Of a stretch of DNA of 64,000 nt, positions 18,284-63,483 are shown piece by piece. Under the pieces are notes generated by a model. That model made no database searches and was not told the origin of the DNA. It saw only the letters and a program-made list of their open reading frames with translations. Made by a program: the position numbers and the translations under genes. Numbering within the stretch: the first letter of the stretch is position 1; each line of letters opens with the position of its first letter. The DNA is from Tepidiformaceae bacterium (GTDB lineage: Bacteria > Chloroflexota > Dehalococcoidia > Tepidiformales > Tepidiformaceae): positions 1,403,289 through 1,467,288 of the forward strand of contig OY282446.1 in NCBI GenBank assembly GCA_958295975.1. The letters are read 5' to 3'.

Positions 18284-21200
18284 CTACCCGCTTCCGCCCC
18301 CCCGCGCCTCCGCGTCCGTGGCCTCCTCGGCGGGCGCGGCCTCCCGTTCCTCGGAGAAGACGAAGTAGATGCCGCCCGCCTCGAGCGTGGTGAGCGTGTT
18401 CACGCCCAGCGCCTCCGCGCCCGGGAACCACGTGCGCCAGCCCTGCGCGCCCGCGTCCCACAGGTGCACGGCGGTCACGCCCAGCGTGAGTCCGCCCACG
18501 GCGCGCGCCACCGGCGTCGTCCCGCCCTGCCAGCGCGCGAAGGCCCCGCCCGCCGTCAGCGTGCGCTCCAGCTGCGCCGTCGCCGCCGCCGCGCTCATCG
18601 TGGCCACGGCGGGCGCGGCGCCGTTGTCCGGCGCGGGCGTGCCCTCCGCGAAGAACATGTAGATGCCGCCCTCCTCGAGCGTGGCCAGCGTGTTCACGCC
18701 CAGCGCCTCGCTGCTGTCCGGGAACCAGGAGAGCCAGCCCTGCGCCCCCGCGTCCCAGTAGTGCACGGCGCCGACGTGCAGCGTGAGCGCGGCCACGGCC
18801 TCGCCCACGGGCGTCGTCCCGCCCTGCCAGCGCACGAATGCGGCCCCCGGCGTCAGCGCCCGCTCCAGCTGCGCGTTCGGCTCCGCGTCGTCCGGATCGG
18901 CCTCGTGCACCAGCGTCACGGTGGCGCTGATGCCGCCGCCCGCGGCGCGGCCCGTGAACTCGCCCCGCGCCTCCAGCGCCCCCCGCCGGTTCGTCACGCT
19001 CAGCGAGCAGACGGAGCCGGGGGACACCGGCGCGGAGTAGCTCCCGCCCGCCGCCAGCGAGATCGAGTACTCGGACCCCCCGCAGACCAGCCGCAGGCCG
19101 TAGCGCGCGTTCGGCGGCGCGTCCCCTTCCGTGGCCACCGTGACGGTCACGGCGGCCACCGCCGGCGCGCTCGCGCTCGTCGGGCAGGTCCCCAGCGTGA
19201 CCGAGCCGCCCGCCTTCGCGCGGATGCCGTCCAGCCACGCGTTGACGCGCGCGTCGCCGATGGAGCGCGCGCAGACGCGCGTGTCCTCCAGGTTCAGCGT
19301 GAGCAGGTTCGTCAGCCGCGTCAGCGCCGCGGGAATGCCCCCAGACAGCCCGGCGTTGTCGCTCAGGTCGAGGCTCGTGAGGCCGCTCAGGTCGCCCAGC
19401 GCCGCGGGGATGCTCCCCCGCAGCCCGTTGTCCGGCAGGGACAGCGCCGTCGCGCGCCCGGAGGTCGCCGTCACCCCGTGCCACGCGGTGCGCAGCGTCG
19501 CGTCCAGGTTGCCCGTGTTGAACGTCACGTCCGTCCGCGTGTGCCACACGAATTGGCGATACCCGCTGGTCGACGTCTCGGTCGCGTCGCCGAAGTTCAG
19601 CGTGGCCGACCCGATGACCAGGGCGAGGCCGTCGAAGTGGGAGGCCGTCCCCGCCGGGGTCACCCGCAGCGTGACGTTGCTGCTGGTGGGCTGCCGTATG
19701 AGCACGGTGAGGGTGTAGGTCGTGTCTTCCAGCGTGAACGTGGCCGTGCCCGTGCGCACCGAGCCCAGCGAGTGCGGCACGCTGTAGCCGCGGATGTTCG
19801 AACCGCTCCCCGAGGTCAGCTGGAGCGTCCTGGGGTTGAAGATGTTGCCCGTCTTCCAGTTCGTGCCCGTCGTCCAGCTGGCCCCGCCGGCGGCGTCGTA
19901 GAACGCCTCCAGCGCCGTCCTGTCCGTGGTCCCGTCCACCAGCTTCACGGTCACGTTGATGGTGTCGTCGATGCCCGCCGCGTCCGCGGCCCCGGTGGCG
20001 TCCACGCCGTCCCTGATGGAGAGATCGAGGGAGTAGGCCTCCAGCGTGCCGTCCGTGCGCGTGGCCCCCGAGCCCGTGTAGGTGACGGTGCAGACCGTGC
20101 CCGCAGCGCTGAGGGCGCTGGAGACGGTGAAGTCGGTCGTCGCGGTCCCGCCGGTGCTGAAGTCCGCGGGGTCGTCGCTGGCGTTCGCGTACGCGAAGAG
20201 GACGCAGACCGGCGCGGCCCCGCTGAGCGTGGCCGGCGTGGCGGCGAACGAGCCGATGGCGATGGCCGTGGTCGAGCCGTCCGCGCCCGCGTCGAGGTTG
20301 CGGGTGGCGGCAGCCTCCCGGAAGGCCGGGGCCCGCCCGTTGCAGGTGTTCACGCGCAGCTCGCCGCTGCCGCTCCGGATGGCGGCCAGCCACGCCTCCG
20401 CGCGCGCCTCCTGCGACGGATTCACGCACACGCCCGTGCCGTCCAGCCGCAGCGTGGTCACCGCCGTCAGCGCGTCCAGCTCCGGCGGGATGCTCCCCGT
20501 CAGCCCGGCGTTGTCCCGCAGGTCGAGGCTGACGAGCGCCGTCAGCGCGCTCAGCTGCGCGGGGATGGCCCCCGTGTGCGCGTTGCCGCCCAGGTCGAGG
20601 CTGGTGAGCGCCGTCAGCGCGCCCAGCTCCGCGGGGATGGCCCCCCGCAGCCCGGCGTTGCCGGACAGGTCAAGGGTCGTGAGCGCCGTGAGGTCGCCCA
20701 GCGCCGCGGGGATGCTCCCCGTCCAGCCGCCGTCGGACAGGTCGAGGCTCGTGAGCGTCGTGAGCGACGTGATCGCCGCGGGGATGCTCCCCGTCAGCCC
20801 GGTGGCGCCGGACAGGTCGAGGCTGGTGAGCGCCGCGAGGTCGCCCAGCGCCGCGGGGATGGGCCCCCGCAGCCCGGCGTTGCCGCCCAGGTCGAGGCTG
20901 GTGAGCGCCGTGAGGTCGCCCAGCGCCGCGGGGATGCTCCCCGTCCATCCGCCGCCGGACAGGTCGAGGCTGGTGAGGCCCGTGAGCCGCCCCAGCGCCG
21001 CGGGGATGCTCCCCGTCAGCCCGGCGTTGCCGCCCAGGTCGAGACTCGTGAGCTTGTTCAGCTCGCCCAGCTCCGCCAGCAGCGTGCCGACCAGGTTGTT
21101 GTCCGCCAGCGCCAGCCCCGTCACGCGCCCGCCCGTCGCCGTCGCCCCGTGCCACGGCCCGCTGACCAGCGCCACGTCCAGGTTGCCGCTCGAGCCGAAC

Positions 21201-24200
21201 GTCACGTCCGTCCGCGCGCTCCACAGGAAAATGCGGCCCGAGCTGGACGTCGACTCGGCTGCGTCGTCGAGGTTCAGCGTGACCGACCCGATGGTGAGGG
21301 CGGCGCCGTCGAAGTGGGAGGCCGTCCCCGCCGGGGTCACAATCAGCGAGACGTTGTTGTTGGAGGGCCACCGAATGATCCGGCTGAGGGTGTAGGTCGT
21401 GCCTCCCAGCGTGAACGTGCGCGTGCCCGCGCGCACCGACCCGATGCTCTGGGAGTAGCCGACCTGGTTCGAACCGCTCCCCGAGGTCAGCTGGAACTCC
21501 TTGACGGCGGCGGGGAAGGTGGCGCCCGAAGCCTTCCAGTTCGTGCCCGTCGTCCAGCTGGCCCCGCCGGTGGCGTCGTAGAGCGCCGCCAGCGTCTCCC
21601 GGTCCGTGTCCCCGTTCACCAGCTTCACCGTCACCTTGATGGTGCCGTCCGCGCGCTTGTCCAGCTGGCCCGCGTCGTTCACCCCGTCCGTGACCGTGAT
21701 CGTGAGGGAGTACGCCTCCAGCGTGCCCGCCGCGCGCGTCGAGGCCGACGCCGCGCCCGTGTACGTGATGGCGCAGGTGGCGGAATCGATGGTGAAGAGC
21801 GTGACCGCCGTGCCCGTCACGGTGTGCATGGCGGCGTCGTCGTCCGCGTTGGCGACCTGCGCCGTGATCTTGCACGCGTCCGCGCTGTGGCCCGTGCTCC
21901 CCGCCCGCACGGCGGGCGCGCCGATGGCGATGGCCGTGCCCGAGCCGTCCGCCCCCGAATCCAGCACGTAGGTGGTGGCCGCCTCCGTGAAGGCGGGGCC
22001 GCGCTCGTTGGCGCCCGTGTTCGAGCAGGCGGGCACGTTGATCGTGGTCCCCGTCGCCATCCGCCGCGCCGTCAGCCACGCGTGCACGCGCGTCTCCGCC
22101 GTTGGCTCCACGCAGATGAGGGCGTTCCGCAGGTCCAGCGCGGTCACCTCCGTCAGCGCGTCCAGCTCCGGGGGAATGTCCCCCGACAGCCCCGTGTCGC
22201 TCAGGTCGAGGCTGACGAGGTTGACCAGCGCCGCCAGCTCGGCGGGGATGCTCCCCGACAGCCCGCTGTTCCCGCTCAGGTCGAGGCTGGTGAGCGCCGT
22301 CAGCGCGCCCAGCTCCTCGGGGATGGCCCCCGTCGCCCCCGTGCGGGAGAGGTCGAGGCTGGTGAGCGCCGTGAGCAGGCCCAGCTGCAGGGGGATGCTC
22401 CCCGCCAGCCCGCTGCTCCCGCCCAGGTCGAGGCTCGTGAGCGCCGTGAGCGTGCTCAGCTGCACGGGGATGCCCCCCGTCAGCCCGGCGTTGCCGCCCA
22501 GGTCGAGGCTCGTGAGCGCCGTGAGCGCGCCGATGCCCGTGGGGATGTCCCCCGTCAGCGCGTTGTCCCCCAGGTCGAGGCCCGTGAGCGCCGTGAGCGA
22601 GCCGATGCCCGTGGGGATGGCCCCGGACAGCGCGTTGCCGCCCAGGTCGAGGCCCGTGAGCGCCGTCAGCCCGGTGAGCTCGGCGGGAATGGCCCCGGAC
22701 AGCGCGTTGCCGCCGAGGTCGAGGTTCGTGAGCGCCGTCAGCGAGGCGATCGCCGGATGGATGCTCCCCGTCAGCCCGGCGTTGCCGGACAGGTCGAGGC
22801 TCGTGAGCTTGTTCAGCTCGTTCAGCGAGACCGGCAGCGCGCCCGTCAGGTTGTTGTCCGCCAGCGCCAGCCCCGTCACGCGCCCGCCGCTCGCCGTCAC
22901 CCCGTGCCAGGTGCCCGGGCGGAAGTCCAGGCGGGCCAGCACCGGGTCGAAGTTGCCGCCGCCGAACGTCACGCCCGTCTGGCCCGACCACGTCCATTCG
23001 CGGGCCCCGGTGGGCGTCGTCTCGGTCGCGTCCTCGAAGTTCAGCGTGACCGACCCGATGACCATGGCGTGGCCGTTGAAGTCGGAGGAAGTCCCCGCCG
23101 GGGTCACCCGCACCGTGACGGTGTTGTCGTTGACATCCCGGAGGATCGTGACGAAGGAGTAGCTCGTGCCGCTCACCGTGGCCGAGTTCGTGCCCGCGCG
23201 CACCGCCCCCAGCATCCCCAGCGCGGCGATTCTGTAGCCGAATTTGCCCGCTCCGGACCCCGAGGTCAGCTGGAACGTCTTGATGGTGGTGGCGCTGGTC
23301 GTCTTCCAGCTCGTGTCCGTGGTCCAGCTGGTTCCGCCGGTGGCGTCGTAGAACGCGTTCAGCGTCTCTGCGTCCGTGTCCCCGTTCACCAGCTTCACGG
23401 TCACCTTGATGGTGCTGTCCACGCTGGCGTCGGCCTGTCCGGCCCCGTCCACGGCGTCGCTCGCCGTGACCGTGAGCGACCAGCCCTCCAGCGTGCCCGC
23501 CACGCGCGCCGAGGCCGAGGCCGCGCCCGTGTAGGTGATGGCGCAGGTGCTGGCGTCGATGGAGAAGAGCGTCGCGTCCGTGCCCGTCGTCGCGAACGTG
23601 TCCGCGTCGCCGGTGGGGAGCTGGTTGGCGATCGCGCAGGCGTCCGTGCCGCCGGGGGCGATGCCCGCCGTGAAGCCGGGCGCCCCGATGGCGACGGCCG
23701 TGGTCGAGCCGTTCGCGCCCGCGTCCAGCACGTAGGTGATCTCCTCGAGCGCGAAGGCCGGACCGCCCTCCCCGCAGCCGAGGATGTCCACCGTCGCGCC
23801 CGCCGTGCGCAGGCCGCCCAGCCAGACGCGCACGGCCATGTCCGTGGCCGTGCCGTCCTCATGCTCGCAGATGCCCGCGCCCGCCAGGTCGAGGCTCGTG
23901 AGGCGCGTCAGCCGCGTCAGCCCGATGGCCCCCGCGTCGGGGAAGGTCAGCCCCGCGTTGCCGGACAGGTCGAGGCTCGTGAGCCTGTTCAGATCCGCCA
24001 TCGAGGCCGGGAACGCCCCCGCCAGGTTGTTCGACGGCAGCGCCAGCCCCGTCACGCGCCCGTCCGCGTCCACCGTCACGCCGTGCCAGCCGCTCAGCAG
24101 CGTCACGCCCCAGCCCGTGTTCGCGGTCCAGCTGGCCCCCGTGGTGGCCGTGTAGAACGCGTTCAGCGCCGCCTCGTCCGTGGCCGCGTTCACCAGCTTC

Positions 24201-58284: not shown

Positions 58285-59727
58285 ATGCCCGAAACGCACC
58301 TCGTCCACCGCAAGCTCGACATCGCCGTCCAGAAGGTCCCCAAGCAGGACGCCGGGGAGCGCGTCCGCAACTGGGACGAGACCTACCTGGGCTTCGACAT
58401 CAACTCCGCGCGCATCGAGGCCCAGCGCTGCATCCAGTGCCCCTCCGCTCCCTGCCAGGAGGCCTGCCCCGTCAGCAACGACATCCCCGGCGCCTTCGCC
58501 CTCGTCGAGGAGGGCGACATCCTCGGCGCCGCCGACAAGTTCCGCGAGACCAGCAACCTGCCCGAAATGTGCGGGCGCCTCTGCCCCCAGGAGAGCCTCT
58601 GCGAGGGCGCCTGCGTCGTCGGCTTCGCCATCCGCCCCGACGGGCGCGCCGAACCCCCCGTCACCATCGGCAAGCTCGAAGCCTTCGTCACCGACTACCA
58701 GCGCCGCGAGCTGGACGGCTACCCCCGCCCGAAATACCCGCCGCCCCCCAGCGGGCGCAAGGTCGCCGTCATCGGCGCGGGCCCCGCCGGGCTCGCCGTC
58801 GCCGAGATGCTCGCCTACCGCGGCCACGCCTCCACCGTCTTCGAATACTGGCCCGAACCCGGCGGCGTGCTCGTCTACGGCATCCCCAACTTCAAGATGC
58901 GAAAGCAGATCGTGGACGACTACATCACCCACCTCGAAGCCCTCGGCATCGAATTCCGCTGCAACACCTACGTCGGGCGCGACATCACCGTCGACGAGAT
59001 GCTCGACGGCGACTACGACGCCGTCTTCCTCGGCACCGGCGCGGGCGTCGGCAACGAACTCGGCATCGAGGGCGAGAACCTCGCGGGCGTCCACCGCGCC
59101 ACCGACTACCTCGTGCGCGGCAACCTGCGCCCCGACCAGCTGCCCCCCCACCTGCGTGACCCCCTGCCCCCGCCCCGCAGGGTCGCCGTCATCGGCGGCG
59201 GCGACACCTCCATGGACTGCGTGCGCACCGCCGTGCGCATGGGCGCCGAATCCGTCACCTGCGTCTACCGCCGCACCGAGGCCGAGATGCTGGGCCGCGG
59301 TGAGGAGCGCATCAACGCCCGCGAGGAGGGCGTCAACTTCGAAATGCTCACCGCCCCCCTGCGCATCCTCGGCGACGAAAGCGGCAAGGCCGTCGGCGTC
59401 GAATGCATCCGCATGGAACTGGGCGAACCGGACGACTCCGGACGCCGCCGCCCCGTCCCCGTCGCGGGCAGCGAATTCGTCATCGAGGCCGACACCATCC
59501 CCATCGCCATCGGCTACGGCGCCGACCCCGTCCTCCCCGAAACCACCAGCGGCCTGAGCACCAGCTGGGGCGCCCTCATCGCCATCGACGAGGGCGGGCG
59601 CACCTCGCGCAGGGGCGTCTTCGCGGGCGGCGACAACGTGAACGGCGCGGACCTCGTGGTCACGGCCCTCGCCGACGGCCGTCGCGCCGCCGACGCCATC
59701 GCCGCCTACATCGAGGGCCTGGCGTAG
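58285..59727 (+). CDS. GltD-like NAD(P)H flavoprotein with two 4Fe-4S clusters
   Basis: The 480-residue protein has an N-terminal ferredoxin-type domain with Cys49, 52, 57, 61 (CIQCPSAPCQEACP) and Cys96, 100, 106, 110 (CGRLCPQESLCEGAC), then an FAD Rossmann motif VAVIGAGPAGLAVAE and a second nucleotide motif VAVIGGGDTSMDCV, ending GVFAGGDNVNGADLVVTAL. This is the small subunit of glutamate synthase or a related electron-transfer subunit such as NfnB or PreT. No GltB is near; a molybdopterin oxidoreductase lies downstream after the repeat array, so it may pass electrons for that enzyme. Confidence 0.88.
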   Translation: MPETHLVHRKLDIAVQKVPKQDAGERVRNWDETYLGFDINSARIEAQRCIQCPSAPCQEACPVSNDIPGAFALVEEGDILGAADKFRETSNLPEMCGRLCPQESLCEGACVVGFAIRPDGRAEPPVTIGKLEAFVTDYQRRELDGYPRPKYPPPPSGRKVAVIGAGPAGLAVAEMLAYRGHASTVFEYWPEPGGVLVYGIPNFKMRKQIVDDYITHLEALGIEFRCNTYVGRDITVDEMLDGDYDAVFLGTGAGVGNELGIEGENLAGVHRATDYLVRGNLRPDQLPPHLRDPLPPPRRVAVIGGGDTSMDCVRTAVRMGAESVTCVYRRTEAEMLGRGEERINAREEGVNFEMLTAPLRILGDESGKAVGVECIRMELGEPDDSGRRRPVPVAGSEFVIEADTIPIAIGYGADPVLPETTSGLSTSWGALIAIDEGGRTSRRGVFAGGDNVNGADLVVTALADGRRAADAIAAYIEGLA

Positions 59728-59755
59728 GGCGTGTTCACGCTACGGAGCCTCTCTA

Positions 59756-59777
59756 GCTGATGGGGGCGGCCATCAGC
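59756..59777 (+). terminator. Hairpin after the GltD-like gene
   Basis: GCTGATGG and CCATCAGC form a perfect 8-bp stem with a 6-nt loop, 29 bp after the stop codon. A T tract is missing, so it would be an atypical terminator. Confidence 0.4.
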
Positions 59778-59901
59778 GGGGGAATTCGGCCTCGTCCACT
59801 TCGGATTCGCCGAACATCCGCACGTCGACCGGACCGTCGACCAGGATTTTGGGCGGCGCTCCCGGCTCGTTGCCTTTCGCATCCGCCGTCGCGCGCCCCA
59901 C
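59773..59901 (-). CDS. Candidate small ORF (42 residues) or gene remnant
   Basis: In the otherwise empty 59728-59904 stretch, the minus strand has a frame with codon use like real genes: GNEPGAPPKILVDGPVDV then MFGESEVDEAEFPR and TGA. A GTG at 59901 could start it, but the same frame stays open through the whole repeat array. It might be the tail of a decayed gene. I recognise no family. Confidence 0.25.
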   Translation of the reverse strand: MGRATADAKGNEPGAPPKILVDGPVDVRMFGESEVDEAEFPR

Positions 59902-59904
59902 GGC

Positions 59905-60640
59905 CCCCGCGTGCGCGTGCCAGACTCCGGCGCCCCACGGCGCCGCGCGGGCGTGCCAGACTCCGCGCGCCCCACGGCGCCGCGCGGGCGTGCCAGACTC
60001 CGCGCGCCCCACGGGCGCCGCGCGGGCGTGCCAGACTCCGCGCGCCCCACGGCGCCGCGCGGGCGTGCCAGACTCCGCGCGCCCCACGGCGCCGCGCGGG
60101 CGTGCCAGACTCCGCGCGCCCCACGGCGCCGCGCGGGCGTGCCAGACTCCGCGCGCCCCACGGCGCCGCGCGGGCGTGCCAGACTCCGCGCGCCCCACGG
60201 CGCCGCGCGGGCGTGCCAGACTCCGCGCGCCCCACGGCGCCGCGCGGGCGTGCCAGACTCCGCGCGCCCCACGGCGCCGCGCGGGCGTGCCAGACTCCGC
60301 GCGCCCCACGGGCGCCGCGCGGGCGTGCCAGACTCCGCGCGCCCCACGGCGCCGCGCGGGCGTGCCAGACTCCGCGCGCCCCACGGGCGCCGCGCGGGCG
60401 TGCCAGACTCCGCGCGCCCCACGGCGCCGCGCGGGCGTGCCAGACTCCGCGCGCCCCACGGGCGCCGCGCGGGCGTGCCAGACTCCGCGCGCCCCACGGC
60501 GCCGCGCGGGCGTGCCAGACTCCGCGCGCCCCACGGCGCCGCGCGGGCGTGCCAGACTCCGCGCGCCCCACGGCGCCGCGCGGGCGTGCCAGACTCCGCG
60601 CGCCCCACGGCGCCGCGCGGGCGTGCTAGACTCCGCGCGC
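59905..60640 (+). repeat. Tandem array of about 20 copies of a 37-38 bp unit
   Basis: The unit reads GGGCGTGCCAGACTCC then GCGCGCCCCACGGCGCCGC. Units are contiguous with no spacers. Most are 37 bp; four have one extra G and are 38 bp. The first (59911) and last (60622) copies are degenerate. All internal copies carry CCAGACT, but the last, next to the molybdopterin gene, carries CTAGACT, making a TAGACT -10 box. GGCGCC palindromes and CGCGCGCC arms give each unit hairpin potential. Confidence 0.95.
60627..60632 (+). promoter_or_regulatory. -10 box of the molybdopterin oxidoreductase gene
   Basis: TAGACT in the last repeat copy lies 30 nt before the ATG at 60663. The leader contains GGGGGAG, a ribosome site. 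It is the only unit in the array with T at the first position of the hexamer. Confidence 0.55.
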
Positions 60641-60662
60641 ACCAACCTGTCGGGGGAGTCCC

Positions 60663-62813
60663 ATGATCGAGACGAAGAAATCCTTCTGCCGCTTCTGCCA
60701 CGCCTTCTGCGCCATCGAGGTCGACGTCGAGGACAACAAGGTGATCGAGGTGCGGGGCGACACGAGCGACCCGATCTACGGGGGCTACACCTGCATCAAG
60801 GGCCGCCACCTGCCGGAGCAGCACAACCATCCGGAGCGGCTGCGCAGCTCGCTCAAGCGGATGCCGGACGGCTCCTTCCAGCCCATTTCGAGCGAGCAGG
60901 CGATGGACGAGATCGCGGAGCGCCTGAGCGCCATCATCGCCGAGCACGGCCCGCGCGCGGTGGCCAGCTACAACGGCACCTACGCCTTCTGCAACGCCAT
61001 CACGCTGTCGGTGACGCGCGCCTGGCACGCGGGCGTGAAGTCGCCGTCGTACTACACCAGCGTCACCATCGACCAGCCCGCGAAGGCGATCGCGCCCTCG
61101 CGCCACGGCTCCTGGCTGGGCGGCTCGCACGGCTTCGAGAGCGCGGACGTGGCCATGCTCATCGGCAACAACCCCGTGGTCTCCATGTTCGGCGGCATCC
61201 CCCCCTTCAACCCCTGGAAGCGGCTGCGCGAGGCGCAGGCGCGCGGGCTGAAGCTGGTCGTGATCGACCCGCGCGTCTCCGACGTGGCCCGGCGCGCCGA
61301 CCTGCACCTGCAGGTGCGCCCGGGCGAGGACCCCACCCTGCTGGCCGGCATCGTGCGCGTGCTCTTCGAGGAAGGGCTGGTGGACGGCGATTTCGTGGCC
61401 GGCAACGTGGCCCATGTGGAAGAGCTGCGGCAGGCCGTGGACGCCTTCACGCTGGACTACGTGGAGGAGCGCACGGGCGTGCCCGCGGCGCTGGTGGAGC
61501 GCGCCGCGCGCATGTTCGCGGAGGGCCCGCGCGGCGTCGCCTCCAGCGGCACGGGCGCGAACATGTCGCCCCATCCCAACCTCACGGAGCACCTCGTGCA
61601 CACGCTGAACACGCTTTGCGGGCGCTACCTGCGCGAGGGCGAGACGGTGCCCAATCCGGGCGTGATCGGCCCCGCGCGCCCCTTCCTGGCGCAGGCCAAT
61701 CCGCCCAACCCGGCCTGGGGCAAGGGCGAGCCGAGCCGCGTGCGCGGGCTGGGCGAGATCTTCGGGGAGATGCCCACGGCGGCGCTCAGCGACGAGATCA
61801 TCACGCCCGGCGAGGGCCGCGTGCGCGCCCTCATCAGCGTGGGCGGCAACCCCGTGGGCGCCTGGCCCGACCAGCTGAAGACGATCGAGGCCATGAAGCA
61901 CCTCGACCTCAACGTCAGCATCGACATCAAGATGTCGCAGACGGCCAAGCTGGCCGACTACGTGATCGCGCCCAAGCTCTCGCTGGAGCGCCCCGACCTG
62001 ACCGTGCTCACGGACTCGTGGTATCCCGTCCCCTACGCCCACCACACGCCCGCCATGGTGGAGGCCGAGGACGACGTGATCGAGGAGTGGGAGTTCTTCT
62101 GGGGCATCGCCCACCGCATGAACACGGAGATCAACCTGCCCGGCGGGCCGCTGCCCATGGACGCGAAGCCGACCACTGAGCAGGTGCTGGACGTGGTGGC
62201 GGCGAAGTCCCGCATCCCGCTGGACCGCGTGCGCGCGGCGGACGGTGGCGGCGTCTTCGACGACGGCGAAGCCGTGCGCGTCGGCCCCAAGGCGGCGGGC
62301 GTGGACGCGCGCCTGGACGCGGCCCCGCCGGACCTGGCCGAGGAGCTGCGCGAGGTGCGCGCGGAGCCGCTGGTGGAAGGCGCGGGCTACCTCCCCGGCG
62401 AGGAGTTCACGCACCGCCTCATCAGCCGCCGCATGCGCGAGTTCTACAACTCCTCCGGGCGCGACATCGCCGGGCTGACGGCGCGCGACGGCGGCACCAA
62501 CCCGGCCTTCATGAACCCGCGCGACGGGGCCGAGCACGGCATCGAGGACGGCGCCGTCGTCGAGATCGAGTCGAGCCGCGCCACCATCCTCGGCGTGGCC
62601 GCCTTCAGCGACGACGTGCCCTCGGGCGTCATCTCCATGGCGCACTCGTGGGGCGACGTGCCCGCGCTCGACGCGGAGGTGCGCAGCATCGGCGGCAGCA
62701 CCAACCGCCTCGTGAACAACGAGGAGGCGTACGACCCGATCACGGGCATGGCCCGCCAGAGCGCCATCCCCGTGAACGTCCGCCCCGCCAAAGTCCCCGT
62801 GGCGGCGGGCTAG
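60663..62813 (+). CDS. Molybdopterin-dependent oxidoreductase (formate dehydrogenase/DMSO-reductase family)
   Basis: The 716-residue protein has a 4Fe-4S site Cys9-x2-Cys12-x3-Cys16-x27-Cys44 (FCRFCHAFC ... GYTCIKGR), then LIGNNPVVSMFGG, VVIDPRVSDVARRADLHLQ, ISVGGNPVGAWPD, and a C-terminal molydopterin dinucleotide domain (NPRDGAEHGIEDGAVVEIES, SIGGSTNRLVNNEE). The Mo-ligand position, Cys or Sec in formate dehydrogenases, falls in APSRHGSWLGG (residues 145-154), where no Cys is present; Ser146 may serve. The substrate is therefore open. The nitroreductase follows after 10 bp. Confidence 0.88.
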   Translation: MIETKKSFCRFCHAFCAIEVDVEDNKVIEVRGDTSDPIYGGYTCIKGRHLPEQHNHPERLRSSLKRMPDGSFQPISSEQAMDEIAERLSAIIAEHGPRAVASYNGTYAFCNAITLSVTRAWHAGVKSPSYYTSVTIDQPAKAIAPSRHGSWLGGSHGFESADVAMLIGNNPVVSMFGGIPPFNPWKRLREAQARGLKLVVIDPRVSDVARRADLHLQVRPGEDPTLLAGIVRVLFEEGLVDGDFVAGNVAHVEELRQAVDAFTLDYVEERTGVPAALVERAARMFAEGPRGVASSGTGANMSPHPNLTEHLVHTLNTLCGRYLREGETVPNPGVIGPARPFLAQANPPNPAWGKGEPSRVRGLGEIFGEMPTAALSDEIITPGEGRVRALISVGGNPVGAWPDQLKTIEAMKHLDLNVSIDIKMSQTAKLADYVIAPKLSLERPDLTVLTDSWYPVPYAHHTPAMVEAEDDVIEEWEFFWGIAHRMNTEINLPGGPLPMDAKPTTEQVLDVVAAKSRIPLDRVRAADGGGVFDDGEAVRVGPKAAGVDARLDAAPPDLAEELREVRAEPLVEGAGYLPGEEFTHRLISRRMREFYNSSGRDIAGLTARDGGTNPAFMNPRDGAEHGIEDGAVVEIESSRATILGVAAFSDDVPSGVISMAHSWGDVPALDAEVRSIGGSTNRLVNNEEAYDPITGMARQSAIPVNVRPAKVPVAAG

Positions 62814-62823
62814 GAGGCGCGCG

Positions 62824-63483
62824 ATGACGGACGCCCGCTCCGGCACCAACGACCTCTGGGAGGCGATCTACACGCAGCGCGCCATCCGCCGCTGGCGGGA
62901 CGAGCCCGTGCCCGATGCCCTCATCTGGAAGGTGATCGAGGCGGGCACGAAGGCGCCCTCCGGGAGCAACCTGCAGCCTTGGCGCTTCGTCGTCATCCGC
63001 GACGCGGAGACGCGCGAGGCCATCGCCGCCGAGCTGCGCCAGGGGCTGGAGAACCCCGGCCTGCGCCAGATGATCGACAACGCCATCAAGTCCGGCCCCA
63101 GGGGCGAGCGGCTGATGATGGCCGGGGCGAAAGGGCTCTTCGAGAACCTCGCCAGCGCGCCGGTGCTGATCGTGCCCTGCCTGTACGGGCTGCAGTCGCC
63201 CACGCAGGACCCGGCCACGCTGCTGGCGGGCAGCTCCATCTACCAGGCCGTGCAGAACATGATGCTGGCGGCGCGGGGGCTGGGGCTGGGCACGGTGATG
63301 ACGACCTTCCAGGGCGCAGTGGACGGCGTGCTGCGCGAGCGTTGCGGCATCCCCGCGGAGGCCACGCCCGCGGCCATCATCCCCATGGGCTTCCCCGACG
63401 CGAACTTCGGCCCGACCAACCGCAAGCCCGTCGAGGACGTGACCGGCTGGGAGCGCTGGGACGCGACGCGGGCGCGCGACTGA
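62824..63483 (+). CDS. Nitroreductase-family FMN oxidoreductase
   Basis: The 219-residue protein has YTQRAIRRWRDEPVPD (FMN-phosphate arginines), AGTKAPSGSNLQPWRFVVI, QAVQNMMLAARGLGLGTVMT and IPMGFPDANFGPTNRKPVEDV, standard for the family. It reduces nitro compounds, quinones or flavins with NAD(P)H. GGAGG lies eight bases upstream of the ATG, and it is in one operon with the molybdopterin enzyme. Confidence 0.9.
   Translation: MTDARSGTNDLWEAIYTQRAIRRWRDEPVPDALIWKVIEAGTKAPSGSNLQPWRFVVIRDAETREAIAAELRQGLENPGLRQMIDNAIKSGPRGERLMMAGAKGLFENLASAPVLIVPCLYGLQSPTQDPATLLAGSSIYQAVQNMMLAARGLGLGTVMTTFQGAVDGVLRERCGIPAEATPAAIIPMGFPDANFGPTNRKPVEDVTGWERWDATRARD

Follow-up and report, generated by a model that had tools for sequence, protein, structure and literature searches.

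The window analyzed here, i.e., the whole 64,000-nucleotide stretch of DNA, comes from a 2.40-Mb single-contig genome whose closest named relatives are metagenome-assembled genomes of Dehalococcoidia (Chloroflexota); the isolate names of these relatives suggest sponge or marine sources. Within the window, a molybdopterin oxidoreductase gene is preceded by a long tandem array, which ends 18 bp from the ATG. The features of this region, in window coordinates, are as follows.

58285-59727, plus strand: gene for an NADPH-dependent glutamate synthase-type oxidoreductase, the neighbor 5' of the array
59890-60644, plus strand: tandem array of 20 YAGACT units of 37/38 bp, 86% G+C, 19 units of which carry TGC-CAGACT
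59890-59896, plus strand: 5' CGCGCGC direct repeat, one of two bounding the presumed pre-duplication unit
60624-60632, plus strand: terminal TGC-TAGACT, a predicted extended -10 element (from its conservation in the genus and the association of the T form with gene starts)
60634-60640, plus strand: 3' CGCGCGC direct repeat, closing the last unit
60652-60658, plus strand: purine-rich GGGGGAG, a likely ribosome-binding site judged from its sequence
60663-62813, plus strand: molybdopterin oxidoreductase gene (716 aa; Molybdop_Fe4S4, Molybdopterin and Molydop_binding domains; formate dehydrogenase/acetylene hydratase-like)
62824-63483, plus strand: nitroreductase-family gene, probably the second gene of an operon, with the same order in congeners

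The nearest solved structures to the molybdopterin oxidoreductase are formate dehydrogenases and acetylene hydratase. Its orthologues in 8 congeners show 86-89% identity, and there, too, the nitroreductase gene comes next. A small conserved gene lies 5' of the orthologue in the congeners, while its counterpart in the source genome is found elsewhere, at 712 kb; the glutamate synthase-type oxidoreductase gene of the congeners is followed by other sequence. Because the upstream neighbor differs between the source genome and its congeners, the array is located at a synteny break. On the minus strand, positions 59773-59889 encode a peptide ending in DAKGNEPGAPPKILVDGPVDVRMFGESEVDEAEFPR, with its stop just outside the array; this peptide is weakly similar (44%, E 0.013) to the C-terminus of a 148-aa frame at G000:C1:1864121 and may be what is left of a gene that the array or a rearrangement truncated. 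GC-rich hairpin-like repeats (CTCAGCGCGGCGCAGCCGCGCGCTCTCCTC) were also observed, at L151:12182-12357 and, in G003, at L130, 3' of the glutamate synthase-type gene there, and may represent a dispersed REP-like family of the genus.

Tandem Repeats Finder assigned the array a period of 37, 20.3 copies and 97% matches, with a score of 1423 that was the highest of all arrays in the window. Cutting the sequence at [CT]AGACT yielded 20 units, 19 with CAGACT (59921 to 60590) and one with TAGACT (60627), which confirms the original prediction of about 20 contiguous units with CAGACT in all but the last; the span that had been proposed for them (59905-60660) was close, with the array proper running from 59890 to 60644 according to Tandem Repeats Finder. 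Units are spaced by 36 bp (once), 37 bp (14 times) or 38 bp (four times); an extra G in CACGG(G)CGCC is the source of the 38-bp units, and interior units are otherwise identical. The order of units along the array is sABAAAAAAABABABAAAA. The first unit and the 5' edge of the array have diverged; the interior is uniform and both edges deviate, and the last unit differs from the interior consensus, over the 37 bp that they share, solely by a T for a C inside the -10 box. Outside the array, the window contains CAGACT only twice (once per strand) and TAGACT only twice; the array is not a product of chance. G+C content is 86% in the array, 71% in the downstream gene and about 74% in the window. The copy number of the array is that of one assembly, from one genome of the species.

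In the terminal copy, TGn stands directly 5' of TAnnnT (TGC-TAGACT, 60624-60632), the arrangement of an extended -10 (TGn) sigma70-type promoter, and 30 nt separate the end of this element from the ATG. The motif TGnTAGACTC is invariant in 9/9 members of the genus (the source genome and 8/8 same-genus orthologues), in which 30-34 nt lie between the end of the hexamer and the start codon; no other non-coding stretch upstream of the gene is invariant over such a length or as well conserved across the genus. While the congeners carry the form TGG-TAGACT, TGC-TAGACT precedes the orthologue in two further genera of the family, and a third genus has TAGAAT. By contrast, a search with the unit sequence detected no array in 29 relatives, and a generic triple-AGACT pattern detected no array like that of the source genome in 38 genomes of the family; besides the source array, it matched one unrelated array of 41 bp and 4.8 copies (L163:1491-1688, in G009, which belongs to another genus of the family), located between the 3' ends of convergent genes. 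At the 8 congeneric loci, on contigs that span the region, we found one TAGACT and no CAGACT within 400 bp. With TAGACT conserved before the orthologues and the array absent from the relatives searched, T is most simply taken as ancestral and C as derived. Lack of conservation of the unit in relatives had been put forward as a finding that would speak against the original prediction; the outcome was divided, in that the promoter core is conserved and the array is absent in the relatives searched.

Transcription starts about 6-8 nt downstream of a -10 element, a spacing that would place the start of the molybdopterin oxidoreductase transcript at about 60639-60641. A sigma70 two-hexamer scan of 59700-60700 returned neither a -35 match nor a pair of hexamers of the sigma70 type, and the promoter is therefore called from its conserved extended -10 element; a missing -35 match is not disqualifying for promoters of this class, in which the -35 is optional and in which the extended -10 is able to compensate for its absence (PMC2613000). 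The T of the terminal -10 element also creates an in-frame TAG (60627-60629), 12 codons before the ATG, and translation reading through the array in that frame would therefore stop there; this is probably a coincidence, as the distance to the ATG in some congeners is not a multiple of three.

Comparisons across the source genome covered all sites of the T form, TG[CG]TAGA[AC]T (13 sites), and all sites of the C form, TG[CG]CAGA[AC]T, outside the array (18 sites), each scored for a coding-like reading frame starting 5-45 nt downstream, with random positions as background (4%). The T form preceded a coding start at 8 of 13 sites, or at 7 of 12 when the terminal site of the array was left out (P = 1e-7 against background for the latter), as compared to 2 of 18 sites for the C form (P = 0.16 against background); the two forms differed with a Fisher P of 0.005, or 0.009 without the terminal site of the array. 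With looser motifs in a 464-kb sample, 21/95 TGnTAnnnT sites and 7/129 TGnCAnnnT sites preceded a coding start (P = 0.0002; background 4%), which bears out the original assumption that this genome uses TANNNT -10 boxes; over-representation of the 9-mer in the genome as such was not found. These associations support a role of TGn-TAnnnT as an extended -10 promoter of the source genome and support the view that a C at -12 would be damaging to it. In E. coli, replacing T:A by C:G at -12 is a classic promoter mutation that is suppressed by sigma70 Q437H or T440I (PMC2613000). The C copies may nevertheless not be dead, because two C-form sites precede starts and because TGn can compensate for a weak -10. 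At several T sites (L011, L013, L178, L181 and L182; TGSTAGAMT), the -10-like motif lies only 6-9 nt before the ATG, including that of a uvrA-like gene, read from MPLDHIAVRGAREHN; these distances suggest leaderless mRNAs in the source genome. Because the terminal copy is conserved in relatives and the T form is associated with start codons genome-wide, the last copy most likely serves as the gene's working promoter, of the extended -10 type. The original description of an expanded promoter with one active-looking terminal copy is thus well supported, with TGCTAGACT at the same position in all same-genus orthologues and the T form, not the C form, tied to gene starts.

Several other origins were searched for and rejected. 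A dispersed repeat family was considered, and the genome-wide search for further copies of the unit that had been proposed with the original prediction returned no good second copy; of the matches outside the array, the three that were examined lie over predicted coding sequence. As to a viral origin, none of the viral contigs matched the unit core exactly. For a coding repeat there was no protein family match, and the open frames are explained by composition. A scan for other tandem arrays covered about 19% of the genome (464 kb), and apart from the 37-bp array, none in this sample was at once long, near-perfect and located outside predicted genes. Two further arrays there were one of 34 bp and 4 copies (L151) and one of 18/24 bp, which lies beside a leucine-rich-repeat-like gene (L143). 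Coding arrays of ~72-75 bp with leucine-rich-repeat-like periodicity were observed at window positions 20455-21076 and 22150-22808, as well as at L138:10790-14062 and L143:1022-2200.

The base composition of the array also bears on two further proposals for its function. In favor of a set of operators for a DNA-binding regulator that recognizes an imperfect palindrome centered on GGCGCC, the array has about one GGCGCC per unit (20 occurrences in the array) at a regular 37-bp spacing. Such palindromes are, however, frequent at 86% G+C, and given this G+C content of the array, as compared to about 74% for the window, the palindrome is weak evidence for a binding array; it was not found to be conserved upstream of the orthologues, and elsewhere in the genome the unit has only weak matches that overlap predicted coding sequence. 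We consider an operator array very unlikely, and the earlier suggestion of a protein-binding array found no positive evidence, as the unit and array are absent elsewhere in the genome and in the relatives searched. Least likely of all is a role of the array as a structured leader RNA, transcribed as hairpins, or as a repeat encoding a repetitive protein. A 227-nt RNA from the array does fold strongly (z = -4.3), because neighboring units pair with each other, but a single unit folds no better than shuffled sequence (585/1000 dinucleotide shuffles fold at least as well), and an mRNA from the predicted start would not contain the array, since this start lies at the array end; the RNA hairpins that had been proposed to control the gene thus did not gain support. 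Similarly, long open reading frames run through the array on both strands, but G+C-rich units lack stop codons in any frame, and the 36-, 37- and 38-bp units shift the frame.

We propose, with a probability of about 0.7, that the array is a lineage-specific promoter minisatellite that arose from a 37-bp duplication, that a mutant copy was amplified and that the edge copy is the working promoter. In the single-copy ancestor, the molybdopterin oxidoreductase/nitroreductase operon would have had an extended -10 promoter flanked on both sides by CGCGCGC, and slippage or recombination between these repeats would have duplicated exactly one 37-bp unit. Slippage or unequal recombination would then have multiplied a copy with the T-to-C change at -12 until there were about 19, keeping the interior uniform, while the gene-proximal edge copy would have escaped and retained the ancestral TGC-TAGACT as working promoter; the upstream copies would be weak promoters at most. 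Here, we infer the order of mutation and amplification, that the promoter is active and that the C copies are weak. A uniform interior, two deviating edges and 37- and 38-bp units that alternate over part of the array, where the order ABABABA points to two-unit duplications, would be expected from unequal exchange in multi-unit steps. By chance alone, the one T/C difference would land within the -10 hexamer with a probability of about 6/37, and its position therefore does not establish selection against the copies.

The same unit order is relevant to a further reading, which is compatible with a minisatellite origin and adds a function to it, i.e., that the array is a copy-number-variable switch whose frequent changes in length modulate operon transcription. 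Near-identical tandem units are expected to be unstable, the unit order suggests two-unit duplications, and promoter repeats of 54-58 bp in M. tuberculosis vary in copy number within populations (PMC12817950). As the extra copies lack an intact -10, however, copy number would have to act indirectly, through spacing, supercoiling or factor binding, and we regard such a switch as possible but doubtful. Retention of TGn and AGACT in the copies, in which only -12 has changed, could alternatively mean that RNA polymerase or a regulator is held at the 19 TGC-CAGACT copies with no productive initiation, so that these copies titrate it or concentrate it at the terminal promoter; terminal and interior copies differ solely in the -10 box, and binding at a poor -10 can be sustained by TGn (PMC2613000). 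Against such a decoy or loading array, which seems unlikely, the array is not conserved and has no known factor, a single array would be a weak sink for polymerase, and amplification of one mutant founder predicts the same pattern.

The minisatellite reading finds its closest described kind in the promoter tandem repeats of M. tuberculosis, which are found at dop (57 bp), lpdA (lpdA-glpD2; 58 bp) and cysG (cysG-efpA; 54-56 bp), whose copy number has been reported to vary within populations and for which tuning of expression has been proposed (PMC12817950). In both cases, the genome is high in G+C, the promoter region just 5' of a gene is repeated in short tandem units (54-58 bp in M. tuberculosis, 37 bp in the source array), and units differ in the length of a G tract (cysG there). 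The units of the source array, each tens of bp long, are joined head to tail directly 5' of a gene, and each unit contains the promoter element of that gene (TGC-YAGACT), the terminal one being the element conserved in the orthologues. It differs from the M. tuberculosis repeats in that it has about 20 copies rather than a few and in that only the gene-proximal copy has an intact -10; an intact element in the copies is a feature read from the M. tuberculosis cases rather than part of a stated definition. Because 19/20 copies have C at -12, a form that is not significantly above background at gene starts, the source array is, on its sequence, best called a variant of the promoter tandem repeat. 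Phase-variable simple sequence repeats in promoters, e.g., those of Neisseria nadA and Haemophilus hifA, have units of a few bases that change spacing; they resemble the source array in that a repeat tract lies beside a core promoter, whereas the unit described here spans the whole promoter core. In animal rRNA gene spacers, e.g., the 60/81-bp elements of Xenopus, promoter-derived repeats act as enhancers, and there, as here, imperfect promoter copies are arrayed upstream of one true promoter; with a different polymerase and factors and no homology, this comparison is only one of how the two might work. That the ~19 copies silenced at -12 form a bacterial counterpart of these enhancer repeats, loading or titrating polymerase or a regulator for one terminal promoter, appears quite improbable.

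The array extends promoter tandem repeats from M. tuberculosis to uncultured Dehalococcoidia and represents an unusually clean natural experiment, in which one conserved promoter stands next to about 19 copies distinguished from it, within the -10 box, by the single base at -12. Any effect of the array on expression would have to come about with no gain of intact promoters, and repeat number would then act in a way that is new; a neutral array would instead show that the copies of an amplified core promoter can be silenced while the gene keeps its own start.
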